Origin: Rhodospirillaceae bacterium
GTDB lineage: Bacteria > Pseudomonadota > Alphaproteobacteria > Rhodospirillales > Casp-alpha2
Assembly (NCBI GenBank): GCA_002706405.1
Contig: PALN01000016.1
Span: forward strand, 49,167-82,213
Reading direction: 5' to 3'
Length of the DNA stretch: 33,047 nucleotides
The position numbers were made by a program, and so were the translations under genes. Positions 4,558 to 19,621 of the stretch are shown here, piece after piece. The notes under the pieces were generated by a model. It searched no databases, was not told the origin of the DNA, and saw only the letters and a list, made by a program, of their open reading frames with translations. Every line of letters starts with the position of its first letter. The stretch's first letter is position 1.

Positions 4558-5139
4558 ATGTCCTTCGCTACCGTACTGACCATCGCCTTCGGGCTGTCGG
4601 CCGATGCTTTTGCCGTGTCCTTAGGGCGGGGAGCATCCGGGCGCTTTCGTACCTTTGTGTCGGCGGCGCGCATGGGGCTGATGTTCGGCGCCAGCGAGGC
4701 GGCCATGACCCTGTTGGGTTTTTTGTTGGCGGCCCGCTTCGCTGATTACGTGACCGAGGTCGATCACTGGATTGCCCTGGTCCTGTTGGGCGGGGTCGGT
4801 GGGCATATGCTCTACGAAGGCCTGTTCGGCGCCGATGAGCAAGAGGACGACGCGCCGCCCGCCCCGCGCGGCAAACGCAGCGTCCTCGGCAACATTGCCA
4901 CCGTGATCGGCACCAGCATCGACGCCGCCGCCGTCGGGGTCGCGCTGTCGGTGATCGCGGTCGACATCTGGCGGACGGTCGCGGTGATCGGCGCGGTGTC
5001 CTTCGCCATGAGCACCCTGGGCCTGCTGATCGGCCCGCGCGTCGGGCGCATGCTGGGCCGCCGGGCGGAGGTTGCCGGCGGCTTGGTTCTGATCGCGATC
5101 GGGCTTTATATCTTCTATAGCCACACCATGGGGGCTTGA
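4558..5139 (+). CDS. mntP: Putative manganese efflux pump MntP
   Basis: The 193-residue inner-membrane protein has six predicted spans in two homologous halves, as expected for MntP (DUF204). The conserved acidic motifs occur once per half: GLSADAFAVSLGRG near residue 12 and GTSIDAAAVGVALS near residue 120. MntP exports Mn2+ and protects against manganese excess. A charged cytoplasmic loop (DEQEDDAPPAPRGKR) separates the halves. In many bacteria mntP follows a yybP-ykoY Mn riboswitch; here only 13 bases separate it from the SDR gene, so no such riboswitch is present directly upstream. Confidence 0.92.
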   Translation: MSFATVLTIAFGLSADAFAVSLGRGASGRFRTFVSAARMGLMFGASEAAMTLLGFLLAARFADYVTEVDHWIALVLLGGVGGHMLYEGLFGADEQEDDAPPAPRGKRSVLGNIATVIGTSIDAAAVGVALSVIAVDIWRTVAVIGAVSFAMSTLGLLIGPRVGRMLGRRAEVAGGLVLIAIGLYIFYSHTMGA

Positions 5140-5999: not shown

Positions 6000-6629
6000 A
6001 TGCTGCTTCTGGTCGGGCTCGGAAATCCGGGCCCATCCTACCGCGACAACCGGCACAACGTCGGTTTCATGGCCGTGGATGCAATCCACGACCGTTGGCG
6101 GCTGGGCCCCTATCGGACCAAGTTTCACGGCGACCTTGCCGACGGCGCGATTGCCGGCGGCAAGGTTCTCGTCCTCAAGCCGCAAACTTACATGAACGAA
6201 TCCGGCCGCGCCGTTCAGGCGGTCATGACCTTCTACAAGCTGAAACCCGCCGACCTGATCGTGTTCCATGACGAGCTCGATCTGGCCGCGGGCAAGCTTC
6301 GGGTCAAGACCGGCGGCGGCCATGCCGGGCATAACGGTCTGCGCAACATCCAGGCCCATATCGGCCCGGATTTCCGCCGCGTGCGGATCGGGGTCGGCCA
6401 TCCCGGCGACAAGAACCAGGTGGTCGGCCATGTCCTGAAGGACTTCTCCAAGGAAGACCTTCAATGGCGTGACACGCTGCTGGATGCCGTCGCCGACAAT
6501 GCGGACCTGCTGGTTTCCGGTGATGACGCCGGATTCCAGAACCGTGTGGCGCTGGCCTTGAAACCGCCGCGCCAGAATGCGCCCCGGCGGCAAGACGGCG
6601 CCGGCGAAGACAAGGAAAAGAAGGACTAA
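6000..6629 (+). CDS. pth: Peptidyl-tRNA hydrolase
   Basis: The 209-residue cytoplasmic enzyme cleaves the ester bond of peptidyl-tRNAs released from stalled ribosomes. Key residues are present: Asn9 in GLGNPG, catalytic His19 in NRHNVGF, Asn66 in TYMNESG and Asp91 in HDELDL, followed by GGGHAGHNGLRN. The C-terminal ~20 residues are a charged extension (RQNAPRRQDGAGEDKEKKD). The gene begins 36 bases after rplY and ends one base before the ychF start, an arrangement of L25, Pth and YchF widespread in proteobacteria. Confidence 0.97.
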   Translation: MLLLVGLGNPGPSYRDNRHNVGFMAVDAIHDRWRLGPYRTKFHGDLADGAIAGGKVLVLKPQTYMNESGRAVQAVMTFYKLKPADLIVFHDELDLAAGKLRVKTGGGHAGHNGLRNIQAHIGPDFRRVRIGVGHPGDKNQVVGHVLKDFSKEDLQWRDTLLDAVADNADLLVSGDDAGFQNRVALALKPPRQNAPRRQDGAGEDKEKKD

Positions 6630-6630
6630 G

Positions 6631-7731
6631 ATGGGCTTCAATTGCGGCATCGTCGGCCTGCCCAACGTCGGCAAGTCGACCCTCTTCAACGCCCTGACGG
6701 CGACGGCCAAGGCCGAAGCGGCCAATTTCCCGTTCTGCACCATCGAGCCCAATACGGGCCGGGTCGCCGTGCCCGACCCGCGCCTGGACAAGATCGCCGC
6801 CATCGGCAAGTCGGCGCAGACCGTGCCGACGCAGCTTGAATTCGTCGATATCGCAGGCCTGGTCCGGGGGGCTTCCAAGGGCGAAGGCCTGGGCAACCAG
6901 TTCCTCGCCAACATCCGCGAGGTCGAAGCCATCTGCCATGTCCTGCGTTGTTTCGAGGACGGCAACGTGGTGCATGTGGAATCCACCGTCGATCCCGTGC
7001 GCGACGCCGAAACCGTGGAAACGGAATTGATGCTGGCCGACCTGGAAAGCCTGGAGAAGCGGATCGATCCGCTGACCAAGAAGGCGCGCGGGCAGGATAA
7101 GGAAGCGGCCAAGCAGCTGGAGATCGTCAACCGCTGCCTGGAGTTGCTGCGCGACGGTCAGCCGGCACGCAAGATCGAGCTCAAGGACGGCGAGGGCAGG
7201 GCCTTCCGCATGCTGCAGCTGTTGACTGCCAAGCCGGTTCTTTACGTGTGCAACGTCGACGAAGGTTCGGCCGCCACGGGCAATGAATTCTCGGCCAAGG
7301 TCGCGGAGATGGCCGCGGCCCAGGGGGCCGGCAGTGTCGTGATCTCGGCCGCGATCGAGGCCGAGGTCGCCATGCTCGACGACCCGGCGGACAAAAAGGA
7401 ATTCCTGGAAAGCTTAGGATTGGAGGAAACGGGCCTGGCCCGCGTCATCCGCGCCGGCTACGAGCTTCTGGGCCTACTCACCTATTTCACCGTCGGCCCA
7501 AAAGAAGCCCGTGCCTGGACCATCCACAAGGGCACCAAGGCGCCCCAGGCGGCGGCGGTAATCCACAAGGATTTCGAACGCGGCTTCATCGCCGCCGAAA
7601 CCATCGCCTATGAGGATTTCGTGGCCCTGGGCGGGGAACAGGCGGCGAAAGACGCCGGCAAGATGCGCCAGGAAGGCCGCGAGTACGTGGTCAAGGACGG
7701 AGACATCATGCTGTTCCGGTTCAACGTGTAG
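6631..7731 (+). CDS. ychF: Redox-regulated ATPase YchF (Obg-family, OLA1-like)
   Basis: The 366-residue P-loop protein is of the Obg family. It has GLPNVGKS (G1) at 9-16, DIAGLVRGAS (G3), and NVDE in place of the GTPase NKxD motif, the change linked to ATP preference in YchF. A coiled-coil insertion (about 130-200) is followed by a C-terminal TGS domain (LLTYFTVGPKEARAWT...). YchF associates with ribosomes and the translation/oxidative-stress response in other bacteria. ATG 6631 is used because homologues start with MGFNCGIVG; the longer frame reads back into pth. It ends in TAG. Confidence 0.96.
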   Translation: MGFNCGIVGLPNVGKSTLFNALTATAKAEAANFPFCTIEPNTGRVAVPDPRLDKIAAIGKSAQTVPTQLEFVDIAGLVRGASKGEGLGNQFLANIREVEAICHVLRCFEDGNVVHVESTVDPVRDAETVETELMLADLESLEKRIDPLTKKARGQDKEAAKQLEIVNRCLELLRDGQPARKIELKDGEGRAFRMLQLLTAKPVLYVCNVDEGSAATGNEFSAKVAEMAAAQGAGSVVISAAIEAEVAMLDDPADKKEFLESLGLEETGLARVIRAGYELLGLLTYFTVGPKEARAWTIHKGTKAPQAAAVIHKDFERGFIAAETIAYEDFVALGGEQAAKDAGKMRQEGREYVVKDGDIMLFRFNV

Positions 7732-7747
7732 GGGCGGACACCACGGT

Positions 7748-8314
7748 TTACAGGAAGTGCGCAGAGGAAATGACGGATTCGGCTTCCTGCTTGGCGCGGT
7801 CGTAGAAATATATTTCCGCGCCCGAATACATGATGGCGTAGAGCTTCTTATCCTTCAGAGCGCCGACGACAAAGGCACGCCGCTCCATGCCGTCTTCCTT
7901 GGTGAATTTGAACTCGACCCGGAATCCGTCTTGACCGGCCAATTTGGCGGGAGCGAATGATATTTCGCGGTATTCCAGGACGCCACTGGTCAGGAGGCTG
8001 TCGATAATGAATGCTTTGGCTTCAATGATCGTGGATTTCTCGTCAAATTTCGGTTTCTTCTCGTCAGGGCCGCTGAACAGTGTATCCCCATTGGAAACAC
8101 CCGTGACGAAGACGAGGGTCTGGAGCAGCCCGTCCAGGGTCCAAAGTTCGATATTCGGTGAATGAACCCGGGCCTTATTCCAGGCAATCGGCGTATCGAC
8201 CTTGAAGGCATCACCAACTTCGTAGCCCTTGGTAGCTTCGACCATGGAATAGGTCGTACAAGCGCCAAGCGCCAGGATCAGGCCGATGGCGGCAATTCGT
8301 CGCAATGTCGTCAT
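7748..8314 (-). CDS. Predicted small lipoprotein, third gene of an M48-lipoprotein operon
   Basis: The 188-residue product has a short signal peptide with arginines at positions 5-6 and lipobox LGAC (Cys19). After the Cys it has no further strong membrane segment and appears to be a soluble alpha/beta domain (FDEKSTIIEAKAFIIDSLL..., FRVEFKFTKEDGMERRAFVVGALKDKKLYAIMYSG), reminiscent of small envelope lipoproteins, but I cannot name a family. It begins 1 base after the stop of the M48 protease gene, so the two are translationally linked. It converges with ychF. Base composition is lower in GC than the flanking genes. Confidence 0.8.
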   Translation of the reverse strand: MTTLRRIAAIGLILALGACTTYSMVEATKGYEVGDAFKVDTPIAWNKARVHSPNIELWTLDGLLQTLVFVTGVSNGDTLFSGPDEKKPKFDEKSTIIEAKAFIIDSLLTSGVLEYREISFAPAKLAGQDGFRVEFKFTKEDGMERRAFVVGALKDKKLYAIMYSGAEIYFYDRAKQEAESVISSAHFL

Positions 8315-8315
8315 G

Positions 8316-9590
8316 TTATCCTACCGGTTTCAACATTTGGCGTATGAACGGTGCGTCAGGCGCGTCAGGCATCAGACGTAGATATTGGCCCAGTTCGTCG
8401 CGGGCATCGTCAATGCGGTCGAGTCGGCGATAGACGATTCCCAGCGAGCGGTGCAGCTTTGCAGGGTATCCGCCAAGGCGTTTGGCTTCGTGGTATGCGC
8501 TGACGGCGTTGTTGAGATCGTCTTCGTCCTTGTCGTTGCGCAGGCGGTAGACTTCCCCCTCGAAGAATTTCAACTCACCGACGTTGTATCCGTCCGCAAT
8601 CAGAATTTTGATCAACTCTAGCGTTCGTTTTGGGCGGCGTTGGCGGATCTCGTCCTCGAGCATCCAATGCCGATGTTTTCCTATAACGGCTCTATAGGCG
8701 TCCCTATTGTCTTTAGCCGGAAAGGCCGGTCCTTGAAGTTTATCGGCAAAAAGGTTCAATGTTTTGGCCCGTTCATCGGGTGGCGGATGCGACGCAAAAA
8801 AGAATGACCGGGTCGGTCTGTCGTCGCCCAAGGCGTCCAGCTCGCGGATAAGGTTCTCCCAAATTTTGGCGCCTTCCGTGATGTCGTAATTGTGGTCTCT
8901 CATGAAAAGGACGCCGAATTTGTCCGCTTCGCGTTCGTGATCGCGACTAAATGCGCTGATCGATCCCATGATGCCCAAATAAGCAATGTCGGACATGGCG
9001 GGGATTCCCACCGCGCCCATGGCTATCGAAAAGAAGGTGTGGAACGCGGCCTTGTCGGACATATCTCGCATGCGTTGAATGCTGTGACGCCGGACGAAAT
9101 GGCCAATTTCATGCCCTATGACCATGGAAAGCTGGGCTTCGTTATGGGCACGCAAGAGAAGACCACTAAAAACGTTCATCATCCCGTTCGGCGCCATGCT
9201 GGCGTTGAACTCTGGGACTCGCATCACGTAGACACGCACGTCAGGACAATATGGCCCAGCCAGTTTGCAGACAAGCTGACTGACGTAATTATGTAGGGCA
9301 GGGTCGATTAAACGTTGGCCGCTGGTTTTGGCCGTTGCCTCGAATTTATCGAACATCAACCACAGGCCAGCCTCGTCAGAGGTGAGCAGCGGTTGGACAC
9401 CGGCCTTCATATCGGGAATTTCGTAGACACTGCCACTTGTTTCATATTTGTCGATAAGACGGTCGAGCGGATCAACCAGGGATGGCGTACCCCCGGTCAG
9501 ACTGGCCGTCGTGCTGCCGCCGGTTGTCTGACAGGCAGCGAGAGACAGTAACGATGCAACAGCGGCCGATATAACTACCGGCCGGATCAC
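8316..9590 (-). CDS. M48-family metalloprotease lipoprotein with C-terminal repeat region
   Basis: The 424-residue product is a zinc metallopeptidase of the M48 (BepA/LoiP-like) group, predicted to act in the periplasm anchored by a lipid. From the GTG at 9590 it has a signal peptide with lipobox SLAAC (Cys20), the zinc motif HEIGH at 160-164 and the third ligand Glu221 in HEREADKFG. A hydrophobic helical segment (about 181-215) sits between them. The C-terminal ~100 residues (YNVGELKFFEGEVYRLRND..., SAYHEAKRLGGYPAKLHRSLGIVYRRL) look like TPR helices. The GTG start gives a 4-base GTGA overlap with the upstream gene and puts the lipobox in place; the longer frame would read through that gene. 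Related proteases degrade misassembled outer-membrane proteins. Confidence 0.88.
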   Translation of the reverse strand: MIRPVVISAAVASLLSLAACQTTGGSTTASLTGGTPSLVDPLDRLIDKYETSGSVYEIPDMKAGVQPLLTSDEAGLWLMFDKFEATAKTSGQRLIDPALHNYVSQLVCKLAGPYCPDVRVYVMRVPEFNASMAPNGMMNVFSGLLLRAHNEAQLSMVIGHEIGHFVRRHSIQRMRDMSDKAAFHTFFSIAMGAVGIPAMSDIAYLGIMGSISAFSRDHEREADKFGVLFMRDHNYDITEGAKIWENLIRELDALGDDRPTRSFFFASHPPPDERAKTLNLFADKLQGPAFPAKDNRDAYRAVIGKHRHWMLEDEIRQRRPKRTLELIKILIADGYNVGELKFFEGEVYRLRNDKDEDDLNNAVSAYHEAKRLGGYPAKLHRSLGIVYRRLDRIDDARDELGQYLRLMPDAPDAPFIRQMLKPVG

Positions 9591-16652: not shown

Positions 16653-17495
16653 TTAGTGGACGTCCGACCAGATCTTGCGCTTGAGGGCGAACAGCATGCC
16701 CGTGAGCACCAGTAGGAACAGCATCACCTTGATACCGAGGCGCTTGCGCTCCTCCAGCTCCGGTTCCGCCGCCCAGGCCAGGAAGGTGGAGACGTCATAG
16801 GCCATCTGGGCCACGGTGGCCTTGGTGCCGTCGGAATATTCGACGGCGTCCTCGGCCAGCGGGTTGGCCATGGCGATCACGCCGCCCGGGAAGTACTTGT
16901 TGTAGCTTCCGCCATCCGGCACTTCGACGCCCGCGGGGGCCTCGCCGTAGCCGGTCAGCAGCGCATAGACGTAGTCGGCGCCGATGGTGAAACCATCCGG
17001 GTGCTTCATGGACACCTTGATGATGGAATCACCGCCCTGAGCACGGGCCTTGGTGATCAGCGACAGGTCCGGCGGTGCCTTGCCGTTGTTGGCGGCGGCG
17101 GCGGCCTTGTCGTTGGGGAAGGGCGCCGGCAGCGGATCGGACGGTGTGCGCTTGCGGGTGAACATGTCCCCGTCGTCGTTGGGGCCGTCCTGGATTTCAT
17201 ACTCGGCGGCGAGGGCCTTAACCTGCGCTTCCGAGAACCCGATGTCCTGCAGATTGCGGAACTTGATCAGGCTCATGGAATGGCAGGCCGAGCAGACTTC
17301 CTTGTAGACCTTGTACCCGCGCTGGGCGGACGCCCGGTCGTAGGTCCCGAACAGGCCCTTGAAGGACCAGTCCTGGGCCGCCGGCTTGTGGCCGGCACCC
17401 GCCGCATGGGCGGGGGCGGAGGTCAGGGACAGCGCCACAACGGCACCGGCGGTGAGAACGGCCGCGAAGGCGGTCTTGATGGTTGGTTTCATCAT
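16653..17495 (-). CDS. petC: Cytochrome c1, ubiquinol-cytochrome c reductase subunit
   Basis: The 280-residue haem subunit of the bc1 complex passes electrons from the Rieske protein to soluble or membrane cytochrome c on the periplasmic side. It has a cleaved signal peptide (about 1-31, ending APAHAA), the haem motif CSACH (Cys68-His72), the axial Met in GGVIAMANPL, and a C-terminal anchor (LGIKVMLFLLVLTGMLFAL). The start is MM at 17495, preceded by an AAGGAAA SD and 5 bases from the petB stop. A longer frame only reads back into petB. The gene itself is intact. Confidence 0.96.
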   Translation of the reverse strand: MMKPTIKTAFAAVLTAGAVVALSLTSAPAHAAGAGHKPAAQDWSFKGLFGTYDRASAQRGYKVYKEVCSACHSMSLIKFRNLQDIGFSEAQVKALAAEYEIQDGPNDDGDMFTRKRTPSDPLPAPFPNDKAAAAANNGKAPPDLSLITKARAQGGDSIIKVSMKHPDGFTIGADYVYALLTGYGEAPAGVEVPDGGSYNKYFPGGVIAMANPLAEDAVEYSDGTKATVAQMAYDVSTFLAWAAEPELEERKRLGIKVMLFLLVLTGMLFALKRKIWSDVH

Positions 17496-17500
17496 TTTCC

Positions 17501-18778
17501 TTACTCCGCGGGCTGAGTGACCGAGGCGGAAATGCTTTCCGGCAGGGCCTTGGGCCGTTCGATGACGCCGAGGATGGGCAGGATCACCAGAAGGTGCGCG
17601 AAGTAGTAGATCGTCGAGATCTGGCCAAGCAGCACCCAGATGCCTTCCGGCGGATGGGCACCGACCATGCCGAGCACGACCCAGTCGAGCACGAAGATCC
17701 AGAAGAACCACTTGTAGATCGGCCGGTAACGGGCGGACCGCACCTTGGAGGTATCCAGCCAGGGCACCAGCGCCAGCAGGATGATCGAGCCGAACATGGC
17801 GATGACGCCCGCCAACTTCGCCGTCATCAGCCAGGAAATCGGCCAATACAGGATGAAGTCGTTGGTGAAGGCGCGAAGAATCGCGTAGGACGGCAGGAAG
17901 TACCACTCGGGCACGATGTGCGGCGGGGTCGCCAGCGCATTGGCCGGGATGTAGTTGTCCGCTTCACCGAAGTAGTTCGGCGCGAAGAACACGAAGAAGC
18001 AGAAGATCAGCAGGAACACGCCCATCCCGAACAGGTCTTTGATGGTGAAGTAGGGATGGAAGGGAATGGTGTCCTGCGGGCCCTTCACGTCGACGCCCGT
18101 CGGGTTGTTGGACCCGAAGGTATGCAGCGCCCAGATGTGCATGATCACCAGGCCCAGGATCACGAAGGGCAGCAGGTAATGCAGCGAGAAGAAGCGGTTC
18201 AGCGTCGGATTATCGACCACGAAGCCGCCCCACAGCAGGGTCACGATGCTGTCGCCGACCACCGGAATGGCCGAGAACAGGTTGGTGATGACCGTGGCGC
18301 CCCAATAGGACATTTGGCCCTAGGGCAGAACGTAGCCCATGAACGCCGTCGCCATCATGGCGAGCAGAATCAGCACGCCGATGATCCACAGTAGTTCGCG
18401 CGGGAACTTGTAGGACCCGAAGTAAAGGCCGCGGAAGATGTGGATATAGACGGCGATGAAGAAGAAGCTGGCGCCGTTCATATGCAGATATCGGATCAGC
18501 CAGCCGCCGTTGACGTCGCGCATGATGCGCTCGACGGAATTGAAGGCCAGCGTGGTGTGCGGCGTGTAATGCATGGCCAGCACGATGCCCGACACGATCA
18601 TGATGATCAGCGCCAGACCGGCCAGGGAGCCGAAGTTCCACCAGTAGCTGAGGTTCTTCGGCGCCGGATAGCCGGAGCCCACGGAATGATCGATGAAGCT
18701 GAAGATCGGCATGCGATGCTCGACCCACTTCACGACGCCGTTCTGCATGAATTTGCTTGTCGTATTTTGTTCGCTCAT
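17501..18778 (-). pseudogene. petB: Cytochrome b of the bc1 complex, interrupted by an in-frame amber codon
   Basis: This reads as a normal 425-residue cytochrome b, carrying both b haems and the Qo and Qi quinone sites, except for a TAG at codon 153 (plus-strand bases 18320-18322). The haem ligands are His99/His113 and His200/His214, each pair 14 apart as in other bc1 complexes; the first pair is before the stop and the second after it. The PEWY motif at 290-293 and all expected helices are present. The stop replaces the invariant Trp of GYVLP-W-GQMSYWG. TGG to TAG is one base (C to T at 18321 on the plus strand), and no frameshift exists. An in-frame ATG three codons later (18313) could restart translation, but it would give a fragment without the first haem-ligand helix. 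It sits between intact petA and petC. The family is certain; whether it is a mutation, a sequence error or readthrough is open. Confidence 0.95.
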
Positions 18779-18789
18779 GACGTCCCCCG

Positions 18790-19344
18790 TTACCCGATCA
18801 CGACCTGGGTGTCCGACGCGAACGTATAGTTCGGGACAAGCAGGTTCTGAGGCGCCGGGCCCTTACGGATCCGGCCCGAGGTGTCGTAATGCGAGCCGTG
18901 GCAGGGGCAGAACCAGCCGCCGAAGTCACCCTTCGGCTCGCCTTCCTTCTGACCCAGCGGAATACAGCCCAGGTGGGTGCATACGCCGACCATGATCAGC
19001 CAGTCGTCCTTTTGGACGCGGTCCGAATCCTTGGCCGGGTCCGGCAGGGCTGCGGTGTCGTCTTTCTTTGCCTGTTCGATCTCAGCCGCGGTGCGGTTGC
19101 GGATGAACACCGGCTTGCCCTGCCAGACGACCGTGATGCTCTGGCCGTCCTTGATGGGCTCCAGATTCACTTCCGTGGTCGCCAGGGCCAGGGTATCGGC
19201 CGCCGGGTTGAGGCTGTTAACAAACGGCCAGAGGGTCAACGCGGTACCCACCGCGCCGACGGTAGCCGTGGAAACCAGTAGGAAATCGCGGCGCGTCTGC
19301 GCGTCGATTTCGGCGGTTGGCGGGGTGCTCGCCGTGTCGCTCAT
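18790..19344 (-). CDS. petA: Rieske iron-sulfur protein, ubiquinol-cytochrome c reductase subunit
   Basis: The 184-residue [2Fe-2S] subunit takes the first electron from ubiquinol at the Qo site. The Tat-type N terminus TRRDFLLVS is followed by one membrane anchor (about 21-45). Cluster ligands are Cys122/His124 in CTHLGC and Cys146/His149 in CPCHGS, with Cys127 and Cys148 as the disulfide pair. ATG 19344 is preferred over a GTG two codons upstream because GGGGA is 7 bases from it. It is the first gene of the operon; a consensus TTGACA lies upstream on the minus strand (19407-19402), but no good -10 follows at the usual distance. petB starts 11 bases after its stop. Confidence 0.97.
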
Positions 19345-19621
19345 AAGCACTTCCCCTTAAAAGGTGTTTTGATCTTGTGTTCGCCGCCCCGGATTGATGG
19401 GTGTCAAACCCGAACGGCCCCCGAACTCACCGCCAAATCTACGGGACCGGCGGAAAAGAGGCAACGGCGGGCATGTATATTACCCAACCGTCATGAAACG
19501 TGCGGACGCAGAATGCCCGCACGAACCGGCGAGACCTTATGACTTGAGGACCTTTCAGGCAAGGGATAACTGTTGAGAATAGCTTGCAAACTGGGCCTTT
19601 CGGGGCCTTCATGGGGCCGCC

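Follow-up and report, generated by a model that had tools for sequence, protein, structure and literature searches.

An amber codon at a conserved tryptophan position of petB in a draft Rhodospirillaceae genome

The window considered here is the whole stretch of 33,047 nt that was analysed: positions 49,167 to 82,213, forward strand, of contig PALN01000016.1 (assembly GCA_002706405.1, Rhodospirillaceae bacterium). Its minus strand carries petA, petB and petC, the genes of the Rieske iron-sulfur subunit, cytochrome b and cytochrome c1 (Table 1). The petB frame has 425 codons, and its sole interruption is TAG at codon 153, read as cta on the plus strand; our re-reading of the window thus agrees with the initial annotation, which had reported this stop in an otherwise open frame. 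The difference from a tryptophan codon is a single G-to-A change (TGG to TAG), or C to T at plus-strand base 18321. The flanking genes had also been described as intact. This holds for the Rieske gene; the cytochrome c1 gene is open over the part scanned.

Table 1. Coordinates of the features discussed (positions are those of the window unless a contig or locus is named; G000 is the present genome, G001 its nearest congener)
Feature	Position	Strand	Remarks
petB frame, 425 codons	ATG 18778 to TAA 17501	-	PF00033 256.3 bits
petB codons 1-152, with His99 and His113	18323..18778	-	PF00033 151.6 bits
TAG, codon 153 of petB	18320..18322	-	TGG in all seven congeners
petB codons 154-425 and TAA, with His200, His214 and PEWY	17501..18319	-	from Met156: PF00032 134.4 bits, PF00033 87.2 bits
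Met156 ATG, first in-frame ATG past the stop	18311..18313	-	anti-SD pairing predicted weak, -3.0 kcal/mol
petA, Rieske iron-sulfur subunit, intact	18790..19350	-	TIGR01416 226.6 bits; PF10399, PF00355
petC, cytochrome c1, open over the scanned part (start codon not resolved)	16653..17456	-	PF02167 330 bits
cydAB gap	L201 (G000:C69) 5050-5073 vs L200 (G001) 6343-8946		aligned flanks
COX1-like frame, unclassified	C43:3203-4372		57.5 bits
C5 cytosine methylase, Vsr and TniB-like genes	G000:C2, L158 1480-3952		TIGR00675, TIGR00632, PF05621
Partly matched frame outside the window	L180 5380-5952		191 of 252 residues matched

In every respect except the stop, petB looks like an alphaproteobacterial bc1 cytochrome b (petB/fbcB). 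Its two pieces give matches to PF00033 and PF00032 over the cut-offs (the domains of each piece are in Table 1), and residues 13-417 of the frame align with chains 2yiu_A and 1zrt_C, which we take to be the cytochromes b of Paracoccus and Rhodobacter. Read through the stop, the frame is 90-98% identical to the four nearest database proteins (P0002-P0005). It retains His99, His113, His200 and His214, presumably the expected haem ligands, and PEWY at 290, as the initial annotation had stated. The single uninterrupted frame of such a gene is broken here by TAG, which the 118 other loci compared do not have. A second petB, the search for which had been recommended, does not appear: the whole frame gives the only PF00033 match in the draft genome, i.e., one cytochrome b gene was found.

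The residue replaced by the stop had been equated with W142 beside G143 of the yeast protein; this is off by six positions. In the alignment, Met156 of petB is paired with residue 139 of 3cx5_C, presumably the yeast cytochrome b chain, which reads FLGYCCVYGQMSHWG from residue 129, so that codon 153 corresponds to yeast position 136, a Tyr that precedes G137. The equivalent of W142 is W159 of petB, six residues further on and intact in GQMSYWG. Nor is the tryptophan invariant, as had been claimed. Among the 228 database proteins that cover the position (12 of the 240 examined do not), 227 have Trp and one has Arg; judging from these sequences, conservation of the residue is strong and falls just short of invariance.

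The stop was sought in relatives at several depths. All seven congeners have TGG at codon 153. Among the matches listed for 61 genomes drawn from its genus, family and order (three relatives with partial cytochrome b matches and one with a distant match only), no stop was found in cytochrome b besides that of the genome itself. Across 119 loci, with five congeners fetched and counted twice, codon 153 encodes Trp in 118; the one stop is that of the window. A class-wide search pattern with TAG or TAA in the place of codon 153 matched one of 385 genomes, again its own; since the TGG control pattern matched 42 of 58 genomes, roughly one case in four would escape such a search. The amber codon is, at the level of the sequences available, private to this draft among the genomes compared. 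A stop conserved among relatives, as programmed readthrough would suggest, is found in none of the three comparisons (61 genomes, 119 loci and 385 genomes of the class).

Separate pieces of the protein were looked for as well. Near-identical proteins of 152 or 270 residues are absent among the matches listed (120 per search, one of which scored 8000 candidates). In P0148 and P0217, both more distant, the last residue is the one just before the codon-153 position; P0148 is labelled partial. Plasmid matches comprised only copies 60-90% identical and were kept out of the comparison. As a separate observation, P0144 is a 152-residue cytochrome b fragment that ends in GYVLPWGQMSF and represents 62 sequences from 15 contigs; perhaps contigs tend to break at this highly conserved stretch. 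Of the titles in the literature listings, none refers to the present case or to a two-piece bc1 cytochrome b.

We compared selection on petB before and after the stop. Past the stop, dN/dS is 0.053 relative to the nearest congener. With the three nearest congeners the ratio is 0.19-0.23 before the stop and 0.05-0.08 after it, and with G002, G005 and G007 it is 0.09-0.12 and 0.12-0.14, respectively. In the comparison with six congeners (G003, of another length, was left out), four residues private to this genome lie before codon 153 and none in codons 154-425. The private base changes number 17, ten of them C>T or G>A; all nine that lie past codon 153 fall at third positions. The part of petB past the stop is, on this comparative evidence, under purifying selection and without a sign of decay. 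Low dN/dS and third-position-only private changes indicate that the 272 codons past the stop were kept in frame until very recently; relaxed selection, as in an old pseudogene, is not observed. Such preservation counts against an old pseudogene and is compatible with a sequence error, a mutation of very recent date and ongoing expression alike.

Whether the cell could do without bc1 depends on the rest of its respiratory chain. All four congeners tested have cytochrome bd subunit I, which was not found in this genome. Here the flanks of cydAB abut on one contig, 22 bp apart, versus about 2.6 kb in the nearest congener, where both subunits were confirmed; the larger distance is likewise seen in G004 and G006, and one flank is shared by the cydA-bearing contig of G002. 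The comparison points to a likely loss of cydAB in this lineage. The genome encodes an open aa3-type cytochrome c oxidase (CtaD scores 654.6 bits for its matched part, with the cut-off at 670.75), an open cbb3 oxidase over the cut-off and a quinol NO reductase. A weak COX1-like frame, also present in the congeners, has no NCBIfam match and was left unclassified. Both types of cytochrome c oxidase depend on bc1. With cydAB missing and both identified O2 reductases presumably in need of bc1, electrons from quinol would lack any identified path to O2 if bc1 were dead, the missing bypass being judged on a genome 88.8% complete. The organism would probably not tolerate a bc1 null.

The possibility that UAG is read as sense in this organism finds little encouragement. 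The gene for RF1 is present, over the cut-off and in an open frame, and TAG terminates 21 of 142 sampled frames, which were picked mechanically. In the window it ends ychF, the dienelactone hydrolase gene, hemF and the TauD-like gene, i.e., four of the six TAG-ended frames named in the initial annotation are confirmed. Neither loss of RF1 nor avoidance of TAG, either of which would be expected upon reassignment, is seen. The suppressor search that had been proposed gave no CTA anticodon among the 37 tRNAs called by ARAGORN out of 38 tRNA matches in the 88.78% complete draft; the 38th match is weak and reads CAU in the alignment. The set is incomplete, with no tRNA called as Asp, His, Tyr or Ile. 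Two tRNA-Ser genes with the GCT anticodon (L140 and L148) were called. The PylS profile gave two matches in the 88.8% complete genome, scoring 30.1 and 24.3 bits where the cut-off is 178.15, so PylS was not detected there; of the 13 control genomes with matches, 12 show similar sub-cut-off signals. The earlier opinion that a TAG-to-Trp reassignment is unlikely is thus supported by RF1, the frames ended by TAG and the tRNAs called.

In the b6f complex, cytochrome b is functional although divided into two proteins (cytochrome b6 and subunit IV); the natural b6f split lies after the fourth helix and separates two proper genes, whereas the stop in petB comes earlier. Indeed, cytochrome b6 chains extend past the codon-153 point in the alignment, in line with the previous remark that the b6f split is not here. 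The restart site is also predicted to be weak: ahead of Met156, pairing with the anti-SD sequence is put at -3.0 kcal/mol, whereas the petB start itself reaches -9.2, 116 starts picked mechanically have a median of -6.2, and random 22-mers come to -5.0. The predicted pairing thus gives no efficient restart site of the kind a split cytochrome b would call for. Methionine stands at position 156 in 117 of the 119 loci, and since 116 of these have no stop, its presence there does not reflect selection for a start.

The quality of the assembly bears on the reality of the base. The draft consists of 97 contigs with 1.73% contamination, and the contig with the amber site, 82,213 bases long, continues for about 14.7 kb beyond it, so that the site is away from an edge. 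In a first pass for interior stops, 13 of 153 matched frames were flagged. After filtering by third-position changes, 9 of 147 frames (49,126 codons) carried stops; 28 of the 147 lie in the window, itself selected for looking odd, and 119 outside it (40,851 codons). The filter is crude: it lost hemF and the cytochrome c1 gene and retained some shadow frames. By our reading, eight of the nine are over-extended starts or wrong-frame or antisense ORFs; petB alone has a stop deep inside. One frame outside the window was matched only in part (Table 1), and no stop was seen among the ABC-transporter matches listed. We rejected a generally error-prone assembly, there being no convincing interior stop in the 119 frames outside the window. 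The clean sample weakens the case for an error at petB but does not remove it, as one wrong base in many thousand codons suffices.

We also considered cytosine methylation as the source of the change. On the plus strand, the amber change turns the inner C of a CCAGG site into T; such sites are the classic amber hotspot of the Dcm type. The genome contains a C5 cytosine methylase gene adjoining a Vsr gene and a TniB-like gene, perhaps as a mobile unit; the nearest congener has no PF00145 match. Nevertheless, over 171,864 columns aligned with that congener, inner C-to-T changes at CCWGG show no excess towards the present genome (53/1383 versus 62/1393 in the opposite direction), and the hotspot was rejected as the source of TAG. 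The specific change of CCAGG to CTAGG occurs once in 672 in each direction; its rarity is consistent with the general avoidance of CTAG. The most lopsided context is CCCTG (21/476 versus 4/455), which differs from that of the amber site.

The initial annotation had offered a recent nonsense mutation, an error or readthrough, and this list of options holds; recoding lacks positive support, the stop being absent from all relatives compared. A single transition that is private and not followed by decay is what one expects both of young nonsense alleles and of consensus errors in draft genomes. Since the stop is private, the sequence past it has not decayed and bc1 is apparently needed in this lineage, we favour the latter: TAG is probably an error of the assembled consensus, and we infer the wrong base itself. 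The living cells would then carry a Trp codon and make normal full-length cytochrome b, and nothing would be recoded. A real and very recent nonsense mutation is possible but distinctly less probable. Such an allele, transient or under weak selection, would leave the cells with only a 152-residue fragment and without bc1 activity. The change is one of the transitions common among the private changes of petB, and the assembly sampled looks clean, which would make an error here a one-off. The likely loss of cydAB suggests a respiratory chain in flux, the genome has a quinol NO reductase, and the part before the stop has both the higher dN/dS relative to the three nearest congeners and the four private residues. 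Against this, both identified O2 reductases are open and should need bc1, a null would be strongly selected against without cydAB, and the part past the stop shows no decay.

That the stop is real and a working bc1 is still made, whether by readthrough at codon 153 or by restart at Met156, seems to us improbable. Partial readthrough, in which near-cognate tRNAs or a suppressor that escaped detection would supply sufficient full-length protein, is in itself an outside chance: yeast has Tyr and one database protein Arg at this position, where Tyr or Trp would likely be tolerated, the preserved 3' part agrees with it, and a suppressor could sit in the missing part of the tRNA set. Yet RF1 is present in an open frame, the 37 tRNAs called include no CTA anticodon, and the lack of the stop in every relative compared argues against a programmed signal. 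Much less credible is a cytochrome b made as 152- and 270-residue pieces that would assemble around the haems, despite the in-frame ATG three codons past the stop, the distribution of the haem histidines (two in each piece) and the b6f precedent; the weak pairing ahead of Met156, the presence of this Met in loci without the stop and the different place of the b6f split speak against it. Nothing was found in favour of TAG being reassigned or encoding pyrrolysine, and its use as a terminator, RF1, the sub-cut-off PylS signals and the anticodons called make this, within the limits set by an incomplete draft, an extremely remote prospect.

As the evidence stands, we regard the case mainly as a caution: a single base in a draft assembly may look like recoding, and apparent cases can be judged quickly from conservation in relatives together with selection past the stop. 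Should TAG prove real and tolerated, an essential membrane haem protein would be made through a stop or as two pieces, and an essential respiratory gene would have stayed functional despite an amber codon in a cell that had already lost its bypass oxidase, cytochrome bd.
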